A stretch of 64,000 bases of DNA from NCBI GenBank assembly GCA_006384855.1, contig VCJN01002436.1, positions 124,001-188,000 of the forward strand, written 5' to 3'. Below the pieces are notes generated by a model. That model was not told the origin of the DNA and did not search any database. It saw only the letters and a program-made list of their open reading frames with translations. The position numbers and the translations under genes are program-made. This DNA comes from Tetraselmis striata (Eukaryota; Chlorophyta; Chlorodendrophyceae; Chlorodendrales; Chlorodendraceae). This document shows positions 1 through 36,769 of the stretch, one piece after another (position 1 is the first letter of the stretch; every line of letters begins with the position of its first letter).

Positions 1-28
1 TGCCCAAGATGCAACAGATGACCGCCAT

Positions 29-1061
29 ATGCGCCGTTATGCTGAACTCAGGCCCAAGCAGCTCATGTACCTCCAAGTAGGTATCAGACTGTCTAAATAT
101 CGCAGCCTTCCGCATGTTCCTCGCGCGCAATTCAAACAATTCATCAAGAGTTCGCAGGGCTATCGCACCATCTTTGAGCCCAGTGATGCTGATGACACAT
201 ACATGCAGCACGTGTCACCACCAACAGGTCTCCCAGCCGCTCTTGTCACTGCTTGACAAGCACCCCATCGCACTCAATGCGATTCTGACAACCCGTGAGG
301 ATGTTGGGCCCAATGGCCGGCAAGCTTACATGTTTGGAAGCTCTGCGCCTTGAGTTCATCTCGAGTCATGAAGGTGAAGCCCTTGACACCGGCGTCGTGA
401 CATGGATGAGAAGCAGCGCTCGACCGAGTCGGTGCGTGACTACGCTCGCCGCCTGGAGCAGTGCCGCAGTGCGCTCTTGGATGCAGGTGGTCACATCACA
501 TATCGTGAAATGTTGACCCTCTTCAAACATGGCATGAACCCCGAGATGGAGGTGCACCGCGTTGCACTGCGCATGGACACCTCCCTCACCACTTTTGCTA
601 GCTACAAAGCAACGCTCTTCCAATCACTCCCAAGTCCCAGCACGGACCCGAATGGAGCCTTCGCCGCACTGTCTTCTCGGACATCCGCACCCCCACTGGC
701 AGCCGTTTCATCACCGCCGACCGCTCCATCAGGTGACATTGCCGCCCTGATGGCGAAGCTTGAGCAGATGCAAACTCATCTCCAAGCTCAATCACAGGAA
801 ATCAGCAGATTCCGGGGCCGCCACACCGGTCCTAGTGACCCCCGCACCTCTCGTCCGTTCACTGACAAGTCCTGGAACCGCGGGCGTGAAAGGCACCGTG
901 CGTCAGAATGTCGTGCCAAGACCCATGTTGCAGCGGACGCTGCTCCAGTAGCTACCGCAGCTACGCACGACTTTGGCGCACTATCATTCAGCTTCCTTGC
1001 AAATGACATGAGTCGCCCGCTTGCTGAGACCCCACTGCCCCCAATGCCGCCCCAAGCCTAG
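29..1061 (+). pseudogene. Copia gag-like region (frameshifted)
   Basis: The longest frame is 402-1061. Its first 80 residues contain a helical stretch (key words YARRLEQCR, TLFKHGMNP) typical of the UBN2/Retrotrans_gag capsid-like domain of Copia elements. Segments at 29-256 and 114-353 look like the upstream part of the same protein in other frames, so at least two frameshifts are present. A basic, Arg/Ser-rich stretch with one Cys-His pair at about 820-920 could be the remnant of a nucleocapsid zinc knuckle, but no complete CCHC is seen. The C-terminal proline-rich tail runs into the 234-bp tandem repeat. The call rests on resemblance and position upstream of clear protease and integrase. 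Confidence 0.6.
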
Positions 1062-1425
1062 TCGGTTGACAGCTCCGGTGTCAAATTGGTGCCCAACTCC
1101 CTAGTGTCCCTACCGCGGAGCCCGTTTGGCACCCTCGCCTTTGTCGACGAGAGCGGACCGCTCATGATCTCCCCACCAGCCCGCTTTCCCACACCCGGGC
1201 CTAGTTTCGGCGCGCTGTCATTCAGCTTCCTTGCAAATGACGCGAGTCTTCCGCTTGTTGAGACCCCACTTCCTCCAATGCCGCCCTAAGCCTAGTCGGT
1301 TGACCACTCCGGTGTCAGATTGGTGCGCAGCTCCCCAGTGTCCCTGCCGCAGAGCCCGTTTGGCACTCTCACCTTTGTCCACGAGAGCAGACCGCTCATG
1401 ATCTCCCCACCAGCCCGCTCACCCA
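975..1425 (+). repeat. 234-bp tandem repeat, about two units
   Basis: The sequence from 975 (ggcgcactatcattcagctt) recurs from 1209 with a period of 234 bp, and the second unit stays recognisable to about 1425. The period is 78 codons, so the frame is preserved. Each unit encodes an FSFLAND...ETPLPPMPP peptide followed by a stop codon (TAG at 1059, TAA at 1287). It sits between gag and the acidic ORF of the retroelement. A linker duplicated by slippage is the simplest reading. Confidence 0.85.
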
Positions 1426-2081
1426 CACCTGACTCAATTCATGCGGGCTCAAGCCCCCTTGTGGCATGTCGCTTGTCAGCGCGTGCCAAGGGCAAAGGTC
1501 CGGCGCCCATGCCCGTGCGCGCAGCCCCAGCGCGCATGGAGGGGATGCATGCATGTGGCAGTGGGTGCCAACCAAGACTCGTCACGGCATCAGCGCGACA
1601 AGCGCGGTAACCACTCCGCTGGCGACGACCACAGTCAACATGTACCAAACATTGGCAGGAGGGCGTGGACTTGGTGGCCATGACAGAGAGCCTGTCCTTG
1701 TGCGGGAGCGTGAGACACTCGCGCGTGCACATGCCCTCGCAGTGGAAGAACGGGCCACACATGCCGCAATGGAGGAAGTAACTGCATCACATGTCATGCA
1801 AATCAAGAAGTTGTTTTCGGAGCTAGCAATCCTCAGCCCCTCGGAACGCCGTGACGAGGAGCTCAAATGGCTACATCAGAACGTGTACGAATGTTACCTC
1901 AAGAATGTACCAGCTGCATCGCCGCATCTAACAGCCCTCCCGCCGAGTGGCCGTCGTACCAAGCGCCAGATATGTCATGCTTTCAGCCTCATGCTAGGCA
2001 GACGCAAGCCCCCGCCCCCCGCCCAAAACGGCTGCTCAACTGGACAAGACCCGTATGGCTCGCTAGTCACACACATAGCAT

Positions 2082-2615
2082 ATGGAGAGCTCTTCTGCAA
2101 TAGCGGATGTGGAAGCGTTTCAGAGCAAACCTCAGGACTACGACTTCTATGGCTCTCACCTGCTCGCGAGACTGCCAAGGGGCGGTTTAATGCGCTCAGC
2201 ATCCGCCATGAACATCCCGCGCCCGGCACGGCATCCACTGTCGACGCACCCAAGACGGTTGCGCAGCACTCCACGTCTAGGCAACCTGATGCATGTCAGC
2301 AATTCCTACACTAACGAGGCAGACAGTGATGGCGGAGACATGCCTAACCTCGAATCCAACTCTGACACACCAGATGACCTTGATGAGGATGAGCATGTGC
2401 ATGAGCGCTCTGCCCACACCGAGCACACCGAGGGAGACTTGCCGTCTCTCGCTCCCAACTCCACCGATGACAACAGTGATCCGGACTACGATGTTGACTC
2501 TCCTCGAGGTTCTTACCTGAGGCGTGCGCTGACAGCGCTCGCAGAATTACATCACGATGAAGCTCGTCACCATGACAATGGGCTGATTGACCGCGATGCT
2601 AAGCGACAACGGTGA
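2082..2615 (+). pseudogene. Acidic ORF inside the Copia element, function unknown
   Basis: An ATG-started frame of 177 residues within the retroelement polyprotein region, between gag and the methyltransferase. The middle (about residues 70-150) is rich in Asp, Glu, Ser and Thr and low in complexity. It ends in a basic run (DAKRQR, with Arg codons continuing past the stop). I recognise no domain. It probably belongs to the linker of the element's polyprotein. The frame immediately upstream (1466-2314) is also open, so the true polyprotein frame here is unclear. Confidence 0.4.
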
Positions 2616-2729
2616 CGCCGCACACAGCGTCAACGTCGCCGAGCTCGCCGCCGCGCACATCATTGGTGCACCCGCATTGACGTTGCATACAACTGTCAGC
2701 ATGGGTTGCATGCCAACAGCAATAAGAGC

Positions 2730-3140
2730 GTGACATCCAGGACGGCATTGCCCCTCTCACGGAGATTCAACACCTGAAACCCGATATCACAGCCTGCAGC
2801 AAGTCACGGCCTATTCACTACGTTGGCCTATGCAGCGGAGCAACTTTCGCCATCCTTGATGAGCTGTGCTCATTAGGGCATCGTTTCTATATGGTGACAC
2901 TGGTAGAGAACGACCGTGCAATCGCAGCCGCAGCTTAATCGGAGCTACATACTCTGCACCGCAAATGGTCTAACATCTTGCCACGTACGGCCGTGGACAA
3001 TGCGTTTGATCGACTCCCATCACAAGATGTCAACCAACTCTTGGGCGGCTAAGGACTTCCAGTCCCTGCCACCTGTCGATCTGTTGGTCAGCTCCCCACA
3101 GTGTCAACTGTTCTCTGTCACAGCATATTTCCGCTATAAT
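2730..3140 (+). pseudogene. Cytosine-5 DNA methyltransferase domain, N-terminal half (motifs I-IV)
   Basis: Frame 2 (about 2730-2936) encodes a motif-I-like stretch, VGLCSGATFAILDELCSLGH, corresponding to the SAM-binding DLFaGiG...G of C5-MTases. It is followed by VENDRA, resembling the motif II acidic E.d. After a TAA at 2936 and a shift to frame 3, VDLLVSSPQCQLFS (3077-3118) matches the motif IV catalytic loop DLiiGGPPCQgFS, with the nucleophilic Cys and following Gln kept. The domain stops abruptly near 3140 and resumes at 6601 with motif VI. Family knowledge: C5-MTases methylate the C5 of cytosine through this Cys. One stop and one frameshift make this copy inactive. Confidence 0.75.
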
Positions 3141-3663
3141 ACGCGCGGACATTTTAATGTCGCGCGCGCGCGGGACACGAGTGTAAAAAGCCGCGTCAGC
3201 GAGACGCCCCGCCCAACCGCCTCACCCATTGCAGGGCCATCCTGGCCCGGCCCAGCGTGCGCACCAGCTACCCGCTCTCGACCAGCGCCCTTCCAGGGTA
3301 GTGCACCCATAGCGTTGACGACATGTAGGTGGGAGCATAGGCGCCGAGGGCGCCCCATCTGCTTGCGAGACCGGCACCTCCATGTGGGTTTGGGTTGGGT
3401 GTGGCTCGCAACCACCCACTCACTCACCCACTTGCTGCCACGGGGATGAGCACGCCTCCATCGCCATCCCCGTTCGCGTGGCCGTTTTTCGCCCATCGTG
3501 TTCCTTATGACCAGTTGCATGAACGCACAAGGGGGTTTGTCGAGTTTTTCCCTGTCAAAGAAGTTACAAGCGTTCTCCTCACGGCCCCTCTGCTGCACAT
3601 GTGCCGCCCGTCACGTACGGAGGGCTAATGGCGGCCGTAAATCGGCGGAGCCGCGTCCTAGAG

Positions 3664-4704
3664 GGCGAGTGCCTAGAGTGCCTCGAGTGGAGTGCTTCGA
3701 GGAGGCGTACGCCTCGGAGCCGCAGTGCTACAAGAACACCGCCTGCACAGCCTGCTTCCGCCCTCACCTGGCCCCGGTGGCGGTCGTGGAGCGGGCAACG
3801 TGGGAGGCGCAGTTCCGATTGGCCCCGTGGAATGAGCTCGGCCGGGACTGGCGGCTCTCGAATGCCGCCAAGTCCTTCAAGCTTTGCGGCTTCCCCTCGG
3901 CGCTGCTTGCCGGTTGGGTCAACGACATCGTCAAGAAGTGTCGGAAGCCGAGCCTGGAGGCGTGGGACCGGGAGTATCCCTCGGCCAAGTACTGACAGCG
4001 AGAAGCATGGAGTCGGCCGCCTAGTGCGTGGCTACGTCTTCTTGACAATGCGCGCGATGGAGCTCATGTTTGAGCATGCGAAGGTGACCAGGTCACCCCA
4101 CATCCCCCCATGGGCATGTGGCCAACGCGAGTATGTGCAGTTTAAGTTCCAGCAATCAGTGCTGGAGGAGCCAGAGATATACATGGATAAGTTGCAGCTG
4201 CCAGACGTGGAGCAGCTCATTTAGCAAGCTGGCACGTGGGGCTTTCCTGAGCCCGCCATGACGCGAGGTTGGGGTCAGCAAGGGCACATTAACTACTACC
4301 CAGTCGCTGCCAGGAGGTATCAGCACCCGGCGCTGACGAAGGCTGTGGCCGGCTTCGTGACATGCGGGGATCACGCGGCGTGGTTGGAGAAGCAAGCTAA
4401 GGCTCGTGCTCAGCGGGAGGCGCAACAGGAGAGGAGGGCGTTGGAGGAGGACTACCTTGCCAAGCCCAATGAGCGTCTTCGGATGCTCGTTGTGATAGGT
4501 GGGCGTGAGAGGCTAGCCGCCAACGGGAACTATCCCCCCAGCCGCGATCCCATGTTCAATGGGCAGGATAAGGCAGCTGGCGTTAAATATGCCTTGGACA
4601 TGTCTGAGGTGCCGCCACCAGCTAGGGGGGTGTATGATTATGATGCATGGGTGACATATTTTCTGGGGCAGTTCAAGAAGCCGGGGAAAAGGCGGCGTCG
4701 CTGA
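3664..4704 (+). pseudogene. Unrecognised ORF of the nested element, + strand
   Basis: Two frames make up this region. The first ends at 3995 and contains a short Cys cluster (ECFEEAYASEPQCYKNTACTAC), which could bind metal. After a frameshift, the second runs from about 4026 to 4704, broken by one in-frame TAG at 4222. Its C-terminal part has a charged coiled-coil-like helix (LEKQAKARAQREAQQERRAL) at about 4385-4445 and a basic tail ending in KRRRR. No catalytic motif is recognised. Position inside the insertion and convergence with the - strand ORFs suggest it belongs to the same element. Confidence 0.45.
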
Positions 4705-4979
4705 TAGTCACCGGCATGCACATGCGGCATTGCGGGAAGGATGCCAGCATGTGTGTAATTACATTTCCAACCTATTTCTTTGCCGCACGGGATGTGTTAA
4801 AGGTGTGCTCTGGGAACTTGCGCTTCGGGCTGGCATGTGTCTGCTCATGCTTCCCTCGCTTTACCTTGGCCACATGCCCAGTGCCCAGACAATCTGCGCA
4901 GCCATAACATCACCATCCCTTTTAGCGACATGTTGTGTGAACACAATGACTATAAATGACATCAAAATATAATTGCAGC

Positions 4980-6191
4980 ATACATTCAGCACCACAATTG
5001 TGCCATTAGTCCTTGTGGCATTGAAGATTTCTGTGGCATCAGCAACTAGCTGGATGCTGAGAGACTCCCCAAGTTTGATGAGCCCCTCCTTCAGCAGTAG
5101 CCTGGCGCGATGCTGAAGCACCAACTTAAGATCCATTGTGCTTGATATCATGCATGTCCTCCGTAGTGCTGAGCCCCGCAGCAGCAAGCTCCACCCCTTG
5201 CCCTTTCAGCATGTCCTCCACTGATGGCCACTTGATCATCAAGTTGCCATGTGGCAGCACCATATGCAACAGCTTCTCCATGTCCGCGTCCCACTTGGAG
5301 CTGCTGAGGTTGATGAGACGCTGAAAGGCATCTTGAGATAGCTTTATGTCAATGTAGACATGCACAGCGTTGTGCCCCCACAGCTTTCTAATGGCCATTA
5401 GGGTTTTAGGGCGACCAACATGGCACGCCTCTCTGTTGCTTTCAAGTGATGTTTAAACTGCTTAGACTCCAATATGGAGGCCAGCAACTCGGGGTAGTTG
5501 GCTAGGAGGGCGCCTAGGATAAAGCGGGGGGTGTGCGCTGCTCGCACATCCGCTGGCTGGCCCACTAGGTCCGCCTCCTCCACGATGCCTGCCTCCTCCC
5601 TGTCAGCTCCATGCGCGTCGACATCGCCTTGCTGCTGCTGCTGCTCTGCTCCTTTGTCACCGCCGGAAGGGGCTCCGAACTGTGCGCCGGGCCCGCGCTC
5701 CGCATACACAAACTGCCGGTTGTCGTCGTCTCCGACTGCGTGGGTGAGCCACGCCTCCAGCCGCTCAGCCTTGCGGCCGATGAACTTGCGCACCGTCGCT
5801 CGGGTCGTCGCCTCCCGCAGCTTGTAGGACAGGCCTACTGGCCGCTCCCTCCCCGGCTTCTGGCCCCCGCCCTCCTCGTCACTGCCGCTGCCCTCACTGC
5901 CATTTGACTCAAACATGAGCCGTATCGGCTTTTAGGCGCGCTATCCTTCTTGTCGCGCTTTCGGCGCAGGATGTCCGCCTCCACTCGCGCCCTCTCCTCC
6001 GCCGCAAGTTGGGACCGCAGCTCCTTCTCCACTTCTTTCTGCATGTTGACAACCTCCCTCCAGCAGCGCTCTGCCTCCTCCGAGGCCGTCGCTCTCTTCA
6101 GCAGGTACTTGACCTCTGATTCGAGGTTTGGCAGCTGGGTCGACACACGAGTCGTCGCTGCTGATGCTTGCGACGACGGCCCGGCCGGCAC
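4980..6191 (-). pseudogene. Unrecognised ORFs of the nested element, - strand
   Basis: Three or four overlapping frames read as one decayed gene. At 6191-5835 is an Ala/Glu/Arg-rich coiled coil. At 5916-5398 is an acidic and glutamine-rich protein ending in LVALKP. The frame at 5398-5126 overlaps the previous stop as TAATG. A last frame runs from about 5150 to 4980. Hydrophobic and helical segments continue across the frame changes, which supports a single ancestral protein. I do not recognise the family. The TAATG overlap may be a stop-restart junction or just a frameshift. Confidence 0.45.
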
Positions 6192-6600
6192 GCCGCTGCC
6201 GCTAGCACCCGCCCCGCCTCCTCCATCACCACCGGCATCGCCGCGGTTTTCTCAGACTGCCTTTTCTTTGACTTGTAGCCCATTATACCCGGACGGGGGA
6301 CGAGGGGAAGGGGGCAAAATACGTGGCTGTTGTAAGCAAAGATGTTATATGCAAGCTGCTGTGACATGCCGGTGAGTGGCAGATGTTGCATCCCGACTGT
6401 ACGCGGCCGCCAGGTCGCCCCCACCGCCTGCGCACCAGCCGCCTCCCGACACCGCATGTACTACCCCCAAAGGGCTTGGCAGAGGTACCTACAAGGTCTC
6501 TAGACATAGGTCGGGCACTATGGTGACTGCCAGTACGGCCAGCAGAGGTACTGGAGGGCGGGTACGCGTACGCGTACGTTGAAATGTCCAATTTTCGGGC

Positions 6601-7240
6601 CCGGAACTGCGCTGTGGTTGCGGTGCTCAGTCTAGGCATGCGAGACGACCGAGCACAGGCATTCTATGCGACGTCCAGACTCATTTATGAGATCCATCGA
6701 TCGCCAACAGCCGAGTGGTCTCAATTATGTGATTGAAAATGTCACTGGCGCGGCTCGGTCACCACAGATCCGCGCAGCCCTTGGGCAGCCCATGCTCGCA
6801 CGAGCGCACGAACGGGGCTCCACCGCACGACGTGACACTCTATTCGGGACCAACATTCACAGCCTTGATGACCTGCGACGACACTATTAGCGATGTGTGA
6901 GACCACCAATGACAGTGGAGGGCATGTTTACCCGTGGCAACTTCTCTCCTGCATGGGCGGCTCCCCCACACGTGAAAGACTGCGTTCTTCCGAAATTCCA
7001 ATCTCGCAAGGGAACCTGGGCATACAGAATGCACGGCCCAACCCCAAGCCGCGGCATGCTGCTCCTCGATGGAGTCTGCACGAAACCTGACTGCGACGTC
7101 CGCTACGAAAGCATGATGGGCTTCGATCAGTCCACGCTCAACATCGCTGGCATATCTGAGGACCTACGACGTCGTGCACTTGGAGCGTGTATTGATGCCA
7201 ACGTTGCTCGTTGGTTGGCTATCGCTATCTCCGTGACATC
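6601..7240 (+). pseudogene. Cytosine-5 DNA methyltransferase domain, C-terminal half (motifs V-X)
   Basis: Frame 2 (about 6640-6720) gives a TSRLIYEIHR segment, like the GTGRLFFEFYR that follows motif IV in DNMT3-type enzymes. Frame 3 (6699-6890) gives LNYVIENV, the ENV of motif VI, then an ALGQPM...ARRDTLFGTN segment, matching the motif VIII region (AAHRARYFWGN in DNMT3). Frame 3 from 6897 continues with a target-recognition-like stretch, MMGFDQ, and R..LGACIDANVARWLA, fitting motifs IX-X. It is followed in the same frame by the Copia protease, so the domain was part of the polyprotein. The closest layout I recognise is DNMT3-like. The frameshift between the first two segments inactivates it. 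Confidence 0.75.
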
Positions 7241-7244
7241 TCGG

Positions 7245-7610
7245 AACGATGAAACATCCTTGCCCAGCATCCACACCTTTCCTTACCAATGGGTGTTCGA
7301 TACCGATGCCACGTCCCATATGGCAGCTTGCTTCGCAGACTACGCCAGCGCCGGTGATCACCGAAGTATGACCCGACGATATATCAGTGGGCTTGGCGCG
7401 TGCGCAGTGCTGGGAGTGGGCACAATCCACCTTACCCTGCAGACAGAGGATGGACGCTCTGTGTTTTCCATGGTCCGCAACTGCCTGCACGTCCCCGACC
7501 TGGCATCGAAATCATATGGACGCGTACTTCGGTTGTTCAGTGCGCGAGCCGCTCAGATAGCCAACGCGGATTTCAAAGTGTTGATGACAGCTCGGCGCAA
7601 TATGCCATGA
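7245..7610 (+). pseudogene. Copia aspartic protease region
   Basis: The frame 6897-7610 carries WVFDTDATSHM at about 7287-7323, corresponding to the Copia protease active site W.lDSGATsHM. The Gly of DSG is Asp here. Downstream are the usual follow-on motifs: an ISGLGACAVLGVGT glycine-rich flap region and CLHVPDLASK, the VLYVPdL..NL of Copia elements. The aspartate is kept but the G-to-D change in the active triplet would probably disable it. It is in frame with the end of the methyltransferase domain, which shows their fusion. Confidence 0.85.
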
Positions 7611-7649
7611 TTGCAGCTATCCGATGCCGTATCTGTCCCCATTGAGGTC

Positions 7650-8650
7650 AATGGTCAGCTCTTTGTGCTGAACAAAGCAATCACTACCGCTCAGTCATCG
7701 CTGTCCGCTGACACATCTAGCTCCACCGGCATGCTGGCAGTGCGCTCGCCGAAGGAACATATCAAGTAGATGCCGTGGCACGCTCGTCTTGGTAATCTCC
7801 ATGAGCGTGCAATGGATGCCGCCCTGGCAGTCCACAACATACCCCGCTATGGTCACCTCCAGCACATCGGCTTACCGTTCTGCGAGGCGTGTGCACTGGT
7901 CAAGTCGACCAATGCACCGATGCTGCGCCAATGCCACGACAAACCCACTGTCCCGTTCTCACTGGTGGGTTGGGACTTCTGGGAAACCCGATCTCCATCT
8001 TTACAAGGCAATACCTACTGCTGTGGCGCCTTCGACTACGCCTCGTCCATGGCATGCTTGTACTTTGTGCGCTCTCGCTCCGCGGAAATTACCTGTCTGC
8101 GCGCCGTCAACACAATGGTCAACCTCGGATTCACTGTACAAGCCCTGCGACTTGACAATGACACCGCGTTCAGGAGCGCATCATACATTGCCGCCTGCGA
8201 CGAGATGCAAGTGCGTCGCATCACATATTAATAATGCAGCCCCGTACAGCCAATTTCAGAATGACCTATTTGAGCGCTCGTGGCGCACTCTCAGTCGCAA
8301 TCTCTGGCGGTCGATATGTGGTCGATTTGTGGTCTATCTCCGCCCGCCTCGCGCCGCTCAGCTACATCCGGCTGTGCACGCACCGCTCATACCCTGCAGG
8401 TTGCGGCGGACGCGCAACCTCCGCCGCGCCGGTGTGGGGGCGTGGGGCTGGCATAATCCCATCGGGTGGTGCTTGGCGCCTCGTCGTCGACGACATGCCT
8501 AGAATGGCTGGCCATTTGATGCGCACAACGCGCCCGTGGGAAGCACAGCACGATATACTCGGTGGCTATTTCTGCGTTCCCGCTGTCGAAACCTTTCACC
8601 CGCGCGAGCAGTCAAGATTTGTCCGCTATATTCGAACATCGGTAGAAGCA
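7650..8650 (+). pseudogene. Copia integrase (GAG_pre-integrase, DDE core, partial C-terminus)
   Basis: The frame 7770-8231 starts with a WHARLGNLHERAM...FCEAC..VKST segment, the HHCC zinc-binding GAG_pre-integrase domain. The catalytic core follows: GWDFWE holds the first Asp and LRLDND the second. After a TAA at 8229, APYSQFQNDLFERSWRTL contains the catalytic Glu. A degraded C-terminal piece to about 8650 (RLVVDDMPRMAGH) fits the Copia integrase tail. Stops and frameshifts make it inactive. No RT domain follows. Confidence 0.85.
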
Positions 8651-9082
8651 GTTCCCGTACGGGAGAAGTACCCGGATATGATATTTCTCCTTTCTCCCTT
8701 ATTATTGATTTGTTGTCCGTTTTTTGCACGGTGATTTTTTGAAGAATAATAACAAGATCTCAGCATTATCCATTCGACGGCGCTCGCCGCCGCAGCCGTC
8801 CGTCCGTCGTCACCTGGCGAGCGCGGGCCTCGTACCTGGCGCACCTGTACGTCGGACGTCGTCCACCACTTGGCCCCGGCCTGCGCGCGCCACCGCCCCA
8901 ACCACTCGTTGCAACCGGTTCGCCGCACATCAGCACCAGCACCCCTGACTTCGTTGAGGGTTCCCTGTTGAATCACTCCACACCTCTCCCACACGACTGT
9001 TTTCGTCGGTGCTTGAGACTAGCGCTGCCAACCACCACCGCTCCGTCCGGCGTGCTACCCTGTCCCACCTTCCCACCGCAGC
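8651..9082 (+). other. Upstream region of the phosphoglucomutase gene
   Basis: No coding sequence is recognised between the end of the Copia remnant and the first phosphoglucomutase ATG. The 5' part is AT-rich (8690-8760); the rest is C-rich with CACC runs, as often seen in algal promoters and leaders. No convincing TATA box or operator was identified, so the transcription start is unknown. Confidence 0.4.
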
Positions 9083-14864
<5,782 letters not shown>

Positions 14865-35296: not shown

Positions 35297-35611
35297 ATGT
35301 CATCAGATGGAGAAGAACCCATCGTTAAGCCGACGCTCGAATCGCTACAAGCAGACATGAAGGCCCAGTCTACATTGCTGCGCGAGCTTGCAACAACGTT
35401 AGCTCAATTGACGGCTCATGACCGTGTTGTTGACGGAGACAGAGTACATGGCCCTACTGTTTCCAGGCAGCGCGTCGCGGGACAGCCGACATGCACCGGG
35501 GGAGCCGCAAAGCGCCCCAGCTTGCTAGAGCTAGCCCAGAGCGACCGTGTCGGAGCAAAATCCGCGAGTGACGAGGATGACTACCTCGCGGTGCCAGAAC
35601 TACTGCAATGA
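35297..35611 (+). pseudogene. Gag-like ORF of recombinase element copy 1
   Basis: Starts at an ATG at 35297 and runs 104 residues. The first half is a predicted helix with heptad-like Leu spacing (LQADMKAQSTLLRELATTLA), the second half is hydrophilic. Copy 2 has the same start at 48216 with about 75% similar residues, which shows it is a real element ORF. It ends at TGA 35609; homologous reading continues in other frames to about 36240, so it is truncated. Confidence 0.55.
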
Positions 35612-36769
35612 GCAGAGTCTGGCTACGAGGGCGTTCGACCGATCAGCCCAGTGCATGGGCTCTTCCCCCTGAGCACCAACCTCACGACGAACGAGTACCT
35701 TTAGCATGACGACCGGCGTCTGCCGGCCCGGGAGGAGTATCTTTGGATGGCATGTTTCGGAGCCCACGTGGCTGCTCTCTTCGTAGCTCTCGACGAGTCG
35801 CTACCTTACGTCCCTGCTGCTAATCAAGACTTCACCCCTACCTCGCGCGTGCTCGGAATCACGCCGAGGCCATCATCGACAAGGCATTTCGCTTTCGTGT
35901 AGTAAGCCTTCGCGCGGAGGCTTAACGGGGTCAAGCGTGTGCACTGTGACCAAGGCGTCCTGTTGGACGTGCTGCGAGCCCAGCATTGTTTTTAGCATGC
36001 CGCCAAACATCTGGGTTCTACGATTTTCGGGGACCTGGTGAAGGACTACAAGCGCCGCGTCTTCGAGGCGACGGTTGCCAGCGGCGCAAAAAGCTACCGC
36101 TACTGCTCTGGTGGCGGCGGCGGCGGCTGCAGGACGCGGGCGTGGCCGCGAATACAAGGTGAGCATGAATGACGGTGTGCGGCGCCTTTCGTCGGAGCTG
36201 CTGACGCAGTGCAAGGCCACCTTTCGGAGACTGCTGCACGGCGAACCTTAGCAACTCAACTGCGGGATGAGCGCCATGTGTCCGGACCAGATCCCCCACC
36301 CTACATACTTCATACTTCATTTAGACTTTCCTCGGTGCGGCACTTCTTATATAGCTACAACCGAGTGCGGCTCATCAACCATCCGCACACATGCGCATGG
36401 CGGCTCAACAATCCGTCTCCCGTACCATCTCGTCGTTGCGTCTGTCGGTTGTTACAATGCGTGTTACAATTGGTTCTCAACGACCAAGCTTCGCGCGTGT
36501 ACGTTACGCGCGTGACATGCGCTAGGAGCGAAGGGCGCGGGGCGGCCCTCCCACCTGAACCTAGCCCCGCAAACCCGTACTGATGATGTTGCAAACCCGT
36601 CCAGCAATTACTGGCTAGCCGCAGGAAACCTAACCGCCGCCGCCGAATATTTTGCTAATAAAAAGAACCGGCCCCGTGCCACTCCGTCGGCCAAGCGCCG
36701 TAGTTACGTAATTGACGAGCCCGAAGCTGTCGCCCCTTATTGCTTGGGCTGCTCTACTCCGGTCTCGTC

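Follow-up and report, generated by a model that had tools for sequence, protein, structure and literature searches.

A decayed Copia retrotransposon of Tetraselmis striata and its intact relatives with a cytosine-5 methyltransferase between gag and protease

Introduction

Retrotransposons are normally victims of cytosine methylation; why should one of them carry a cytosine-5 DNA methyltransferase (C5-MTase, or MTase for short) of its own? The question is raised by positions 124001-188000 of contig C1963 in a 224-Mb assembly of Tetraselmis striata, a stretch of 64,000 nucleotides that is here called the window. A sequence-only reading of it had claimed a Copia element with a C5-MTase between gag and protease, and intact relatives confirm the claim. 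The window copy is almost certainly the fossil of an autonomous Ty1/Copia family that encodes a single gag-pol polyprotein, with a C5-MTase set between the zinc knuckle of gag and the protease. At least five families of such elements have intact, recent members in this genome. The host had been taken for a volvocine-type alga; T. striata belongs to the Chlorodendrophyceae and is, therefore, not volvocine.

An autonomous MTase-bearing Copia element beside abundant MTase-less Copia in one chlorophyte genome is a natural experiment on methylation, age and survival of insertions.

The window copy

The anatomy of the window copy is best described with reference to L029, an intact relative of what we call family A. 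Coordinates are those of the window; those of the motifs were read by hand from the sequence. A1 and A2 are alignments of the relatives.

1-1203, plus strand: gag-coding part of the decayed copy; the Copia element itself begins upstream of the window; 88.5% identity to L029 2007-3199
1205-3117, plus strand: gag end, linker and first MTase part; 88.7% identity to L029 2968-4858
2825-2848, plus strand: MTase motif I-like GLCSGATF; C and G of the LCxG column invariant in A1 and A2
3090-3116, plus strand: MTase motif IV SSPQCQLFS with the catalytic Cys; Cys column invariant in A1 and A2
3118-6618, no strand assigned: foreign insert of about 3.5 kb, a DNA-transposon-like repeat with imperfect inverted ends and further copies in the genome; flanks contiguous in L029
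6619-7280, plus strand: second MTase part (motifs VI, VIII and IX/X-like); 90.6% identity to L029 from 4860; in the protease frame from 6891
6732-6743, plus strand: MTase motif VI IENV; E and N columns invariant in A1 and A2
6828-6854, plus strand: MTase motif VIII-like RRDTLFGTN; R and W columns invariant in the relatives, A1 and A2
7179-7220, plus strand: MTase motif X-like LGACIDANVARWLA; G, D and N columns invariant in A2
7290-7322, plus strand: Copia protease motif WVFDTDATSHM, start of the protease/Pol_BBD region; Pol_BBD (PF22936) E 5.6e-5 at residues 134-206 of the open reading frame (ORF) 6891-7610, under the curated cut-off of 27 bits
7770-8295, plus strand: truncated integrase; rve (PF00665) E 1e-6 in 7770-8231, under its cut-off

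All MTase motifs claimed in the sequence-only reading are present in the sequence, on the plus strand and in the order given there. The last of them was said to be in frame with the protease motif DTDATSHM, and the two indeed share the open frame 6891-7610. Because blastn aligns the window to the intact L029, the MTase signal in the window is not a product of chance. The identity of 88.5-90.6% (the upper value for 6619-8295) and the contiguity of the two insert flanks in L029, where they adjoin at 4858/4860, further imply that the window copy is a decayed, interrupted and 3'-truncated family A element. The 32 indels that separate it from L029, of which 23 alter the frame, show that it is dead. 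Its gag region contains a tandem duplication of 224 nt (972-1195 and 1206-1429, 89% identity), which is absent from L029. Past 8295, inside the integrase, the window has no further match to L029, and reverse transcriptase (RT) and 3' long terminal repeat (LTR) were for this reason not found in it. The 5' LTR, the sole one seen for this copy, lies upstream of the window, at about contig position 122789-123294.

Ten pieces of the window, each scanned by itself, gave no match to the C5-MTase profile PF00145 at E<=1, and the MTase domain is thus provable only via the relatives; weak matches were seen to gag, zinc knuckle, Pol_BBD, gag_pre-integrs and rve. A protein search with ORF 6891-7610 alone yielded no match among candidates limited to 0.55-1.75 times its length.

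Intact relatives

A genome search with a 239-residue piece of the window returned at least 155 matches, many of them in open frames of 1,400-2,483 amino acids. L029 (contig C2193) is one open frame of 2,483 residues; the near-identical L030 (contig C2518) has its frame split in the RT. Five MTase-bearing elements have both LTRs in view: two belong to family A, while families C, D and E contribute a single one each. All five have a long open frame in the order gag-MTase-protease-integrase-RT-RNase H, which in one is broken in the RT. The family B element (L031) extends past the stretch examined, and its LTRs stand outside this count. The search for intact full-length copies, which the sequence-only reading had proposed, thereby produced five elements whose LTRs differ by 0-3 mismatches (1/512, 0/513, 0/445, 3/326 and 0/481). 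Each is flanked by a 5-bp target-site duplication (ATGTA, GGCAG, GACGG, CGGAG, ATGTC), if the LTR edge is moved by one base from the printed edge in two elements. The 5' LTR is followed by GGTTATGG or a near form of it, a candidate tRNA primer-binding site, and the 3' LTR is preceded by a tract rich in G.

Pfam domains in L029 are, in order, zf-CCHC, PF00145, Pol_BBD, gag_pre-integrs, rve, SH3_retrovirus and RVT_2; those detected in L032, L045 and L046 are a subset in the same order. RVT_2 was matched with E values of 7.1e-44 to 9.3e-60 in L029, L045 and L046 and of 3.5e-68 in L032, in all of them C-terminal to the integrase. RNase H was recognised by eye in the translations and gave no profile match of its own. 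The order gag-protease-integrase-RT-RNase H with an RVT_2-type RT, the LTRs and the 5-bp duplications mark these elements as Ty1/Copia. Intact, recently inserted MTase-bearing Copia elements of at least five families are present in the same genome. Their MTase shares one open frame with protease and integrase, which is what the sequence-only reading had asked of intact relatives.

A lower bound on their number comes from a genome search with an MTase borne by a long interspersed nuclear element (LINE). Among the matches listed, 113 MTase loci were found (114 first-part rows, one locus being split in two); 4 of them are of LINE type, and frames of at least 2,000 residues surround 26, of which 25 are Copia-type by similarity. 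A region search of proteins with the whole L029 frame found five proteins. Three of them, the T. striata gene models P0121-P0123, combine PF00145 and PF07727 in one protein; the others, P0124 and P0125, are discussed below. In the aligned pieces, family B is matched at 95.5-100% by the jgi/Tetstr1 proteins, which we take to be T. striata gene models.

One could suspect that the MTase does not belong to the element at all, being a nested host gene, a chance ORF or an assembly artefact, and the window copy, broken as it is by a real foreign insert, invites such a suspicion. It is contradicted by the same order in uninterrupted frames of several families, in the models P0121-P0123 and in P0124, and we give it practically no credence.

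The methyltransferase domain

PF00145, tested on the whole open frames of relatives rather than on window pieces joined across the insert, exceeds the Pfam cut-off in six of the seven retroelement proteins scanned (L029, L045, L046, L048, P0124 and P0125). A match to this profile, which the sequence-only reading had asked for, was thus missed with the single window pieces and obtained with most of the whole frames. The seventh, L032 of family C, stays under the cut-off with 18.5 vs 22 bits. In the Copia frames the domain lies between the zinc knuckle/gag and the protease/integrase region. The catalytic Cys and the glutamate of ENV are kept in families A-E, in the LINE, in P0124 and in P0125, as are the motif VIII-like R..xxxW and the motif X-like GxxxDxN. 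The motif order I, IV (Cys), VI (ENV), VIII, X of C5-MTases is found in both alignments, L033 being partial; in family D, PCC replaces PPC with the Cys in place.

To which class does the domain belong? The layout had been called DNMT3-like. In a profile search of the PDB, DNMT3A came first (6.5e-10), followed by M.HaeIII (3.9e-9), DNMT2 (5.7e-8) and DNMT3B. The phylogenetic affinity is weakly supported: in a tree of 29 rows the nine retroelement MTases form one clade (support 100/100), DNMT3A joins it at 80/54, and the two together are joined by a viral MTase (98/91). DNMT3A is the sole DNMT3 in this tree, and the assignment to the DNMT3 class is therefore provisional. Among the references used, the retroelement MTases appear to be weakly nearest to DNMT3A. 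An AlphaFold2 model of P0001 was uninformative (mean predicted local distance difference test score 44.8).

A prokaryotic or viral source of the retroelement clade was also considered, and none was found among 39 loci matching A2 (at least 22 viral, 17 genome). Their best segments are 26-50% identical, mostly in the catalytic core. Frames were sought for 14 of the 39 and obtained for 13, all of which look like ordinary stand-alone MTases.

Selection and conservation

The ratio of nonsynonymous to synonymous changes (dN/dS) was calculated for 15 MTase pairs, 11 within and 4 across families. For the seven within-family pairs with at least eight changes it is 0.20, 0.33, 0.25, 0.40, 0.30, 0.19 and 0.33. 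Across families, where dS is saturated, it is 0.22, 0.25 and 0.31, with one value undefined. The protease yields similar ratios (0.31 and 0.27 in two pairs with enough changes). These values suggest that the MTase is under purifying selection.

Identities in MTase/protease/integrase/RT are 53/57/68/72% between families A and B, 45/40/56/60% between A and C, 35/28/34/38% between A and E, and 40/29/37/38% between D and E. The MTase is thus conserved between families about as well as the protease region and less than the RT. Having diverged to about the same extent as the protease, the MTase domain seems to be as old as the split of the Copia families, although a Copia family lacking it (L047, see below) branches among them in the RT tree.

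Related methyltransferases in other elements

The MTase is not confined to Copia. L048 (C2687:14001-24000, frame 3-9194) contains a LINE-like frame, no shorter than 3,064 residues, with endonuclease, RVT_1, PF00145 (1.2e-8) and RNase H. The same single frame also shows a match to PCIF1_WW (PF12237, 1e-14) beside the C5-MTase; we take this domain to be part of the cap adenosine methyltransferase PCIF1.

The ENA protein P0125 has a Gypsy-type order, RT-RNase H-MTase-PHD-integrase, with PF00145 at 9.7e-12, and comprises 35 member sequences. What it shares with the window family is a related MTase, about 36% identical, in a retroelement polyprotein; what differs is the Gypsy-type order, with the MTase between RNase H and PHD/integrase. 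The MTases of L048 and P0125 fall inside the retroelement clade of the 29-row tree. Closer is P0124, another ENA protein: a Copia polyprotein of 2,514 residues with PF00145, rve and RVT_2, whose MTase is 45-50% and whose RT is 58-60% identical to families A-C. It differs in its source and in a longer linker with CCCH-type zinc-finger matches.

Possibly, though we rate this somewhat below an even chance, green algae harbour a circulating lineage of DNMT3-like MTases that is specialised for retroelements. Copia, Gypsy and LINE elements would have handed one module to each other rather than capturing it repeatedly from hosts, and this module would have been under selection since before the Copia families, with RTs about 35% identical, split. 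If true, a clade common to Copia, LINE and Gypsy-type elements would speak for exchange between mobile elements rather than for host genes captured again and again.

How often Copia acquired the MTase is a related problem. The 29-row tree joins the Copia MTases (93/85), whereas a smaller tree supports the join in 16% of 200 bootstrap trees. L047 represents a Copia family with a frame of 1,561 residues and without a PF00145 match at E<=0.01. In the RT tree, which is unrooted, carries a long-branch warning and has an inflated label count, three family-C-like RT fragments being unlabelled, L047 clusters with A, B, C and P0124, apart from D and E (99/99). One gain and one loss, or two gains, are possible.

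What might the methyltransferase do?

The MTase may be a functional enzyme, related to DNMT3, whose target is the cDNA of the element itself, and to this we assign about an even chance. It would be made and packaged as part of Gag-Pol and freed by the element's own protease. In the particle, before integration, it would methylate the element cDNA or an RNA-DNA intermediate, and the methylated new DNA would resemble host DNA or resist a host attack on foreign cDNA. The explanation as a whole, i.e., the Copia fossil anatomy together with the packaged enzyme acting on its own cDNA, we consider slightly favoured.

Several observations weigh against such a role. Four within-family MTase pairs have too few changes for a reliable dN/dS (no ratio, 1.35, 0.68 and 0.34), and the MTase ratios lie above those of the RT (0.08 and 0.15 across families, with dS saturated). 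Motif I is poor in family E. According to passages of PMC5890265, the DNMT domains of Gypsy and LINE elements were inactive in a yeast assay. The abundant MTase-less Copia (L047) thrives in the same genome; the MTase is, therefore, optional and not needed for transposition. Finally, clear CpG depletion was not found, neither in the CpG observed/expected ratio of MTase-bearing elements nor in the transitions of the window copy. The ratio is 0.75 and 0.74 in family A, 0.84 in C, 0.97 in D, 0.89 in E and 0.88 in the frame of family B; the values for comparison are 0.89 (L047) and 0.92 (window 12001-64000). Transitions in the direction from L029 to the window copy affect 47/703 CpG bases (6.7%) vs 105/2,078 other C/G bases (5.1%); with reverse polarity the figures are 46/696 (6.6%) vs 76/2,006 (3.8%). 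The CpG excess is at most mild, which argues against heavy long-term CpG methylation of the window copy, provided that mutation of C is accelerated by methylation in this alga.

The CpG data bear also on a different idea, self-restraint, which is discussed as a possibility in passages of PMC5890265: the MTase would mark the element's own new insertions for silencing by the host, limit copy number and host damage, and let the family persist. The numerous copies, many of them intact and presumably quiet, would fit. Under the same premise on mutation, however, long-term CpG silencing should have marked the dead window copy, which shows little CpG decay, and we regard self-restraint as unlikely, even if non-CpG methylation would escape the test. 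Alternatively, the domain might act on RNA, or merely as a nucleic-acid-binding fold in packaging, RNA stability or strand transfer, and not as a DNA methylase. It lies next to the zinc knuckle of gag; the RNA methylase DNMT2 figures among the PDB matches and joins the DNMT3A-retroelement side of the tree (92/81); and SymbioLINE-Dnmt was inactive on DNA in yeast, as described in parts of PMC5890265. Yet the best PDB match is DNMT3A, and the catalytic residues are kept in every family compared, beyond the needs of a mere binding fold. We consider this alternative quite unlikely. A precedent for methylation of the element's own cDNA is the de novo CG methylation that two SymbioDIRS-Dnmt3 domains carried out in yeast (PMC5890265).

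Further observations

The insert at 3118-6618 is an unrelated repeat: a 480-base piece of it occurs at no less than 40 places in the genome, that in the window included, with 90-100% identity. Window 35306-36740 shows exon-like tblastx matches to L046 8513-9978, a stretch downstream of the family E element; the two are apparently paralogous copies of a host gene.

MTase-less Copia elements, mostly with frames of 1,561 residues, are crowded on some contigs, with 7, 6, 5, 5 and 5 of 150 scored RT matches on C1776, C805, C440, C1435 and C1303, respectively, and crowding is seen on other contigs too. These are perhaps centromeric clusters.

Near-identical frames of stand-alone C5-MTases of about 325 residues occur at several loci (L001-L006, L008, L102). 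They group with L007 beside DNMT1 and away from the retroelement clade (L001 and L007 being those in the tree), and stem perhaps from an integrated virus or a DNA transposon. L101 (C2009:28801-30800) is a 630-residue MTase of bacterial or phage look; contig C2009 may be a contaminant.

Comparison with known systems

The sequence-only reading had mentioned C5-MTases in algal and dinoflagellate retrotransposons. This is borne out by passages of PMC5890265, which report DNMTs in LINE and DIRS elements of Symbiodinium and in Gypsy elements of Klebsormidium, and describe Symbiodinium Copia as devoid of any DNMT domain. PMC12344493, in the part available, cites that paper for DNMT3 in "LTR Copia and DIRS" of streptophytes and dinoflagellates, whereas the cited paper itself says Gypsy. 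A cytosine MTase is listed among the very high-copy scaffolds of the green alga Cymbomonas in a passage of PMC5741210. Passages of PMC6338049, PMC12477816, PMC9998398, PMC10120064 and PMC10538959 contain no Copia-DNMT element. A description of Copia elements with DNMT in a chlorophyte was not found in searches of an open-access library, subscription papers and Repbase lying outside the search.

Compared by their descriptions in parts of PMC5890265, two systems come close. KnitGypsy-Dnmt3 of the charophyte Klebsormidium nitens likewise belongs to the LTR retrotransposons and encodes a DNMT3-related MTase within its polyprotein frame; it is multicopy, reportedly under purifying selection, and lives in a host of the green lineage. 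It is, however, a Gypsy element with DIRS-like repeat structure, while that of T. striata is Copia, with ordinary LTRs, RVT_2 and the MTase between gag and protease. SymbioDIRS-Dnmt3 and SymbioLINE-Dnmt of Symbiodinium share the MTase in retroelement coding regions, the many copies and the purifying selection, but belong to the DIRS and LINE classes. By its domain order and LTRs, the window family stands outside the published classes of DNMT retroelements. DNMT-bearing LINE, DIRS and Gypsy elements are already on record in PMC5890265; the case of T. striata adds Copia in a chlorophyte.

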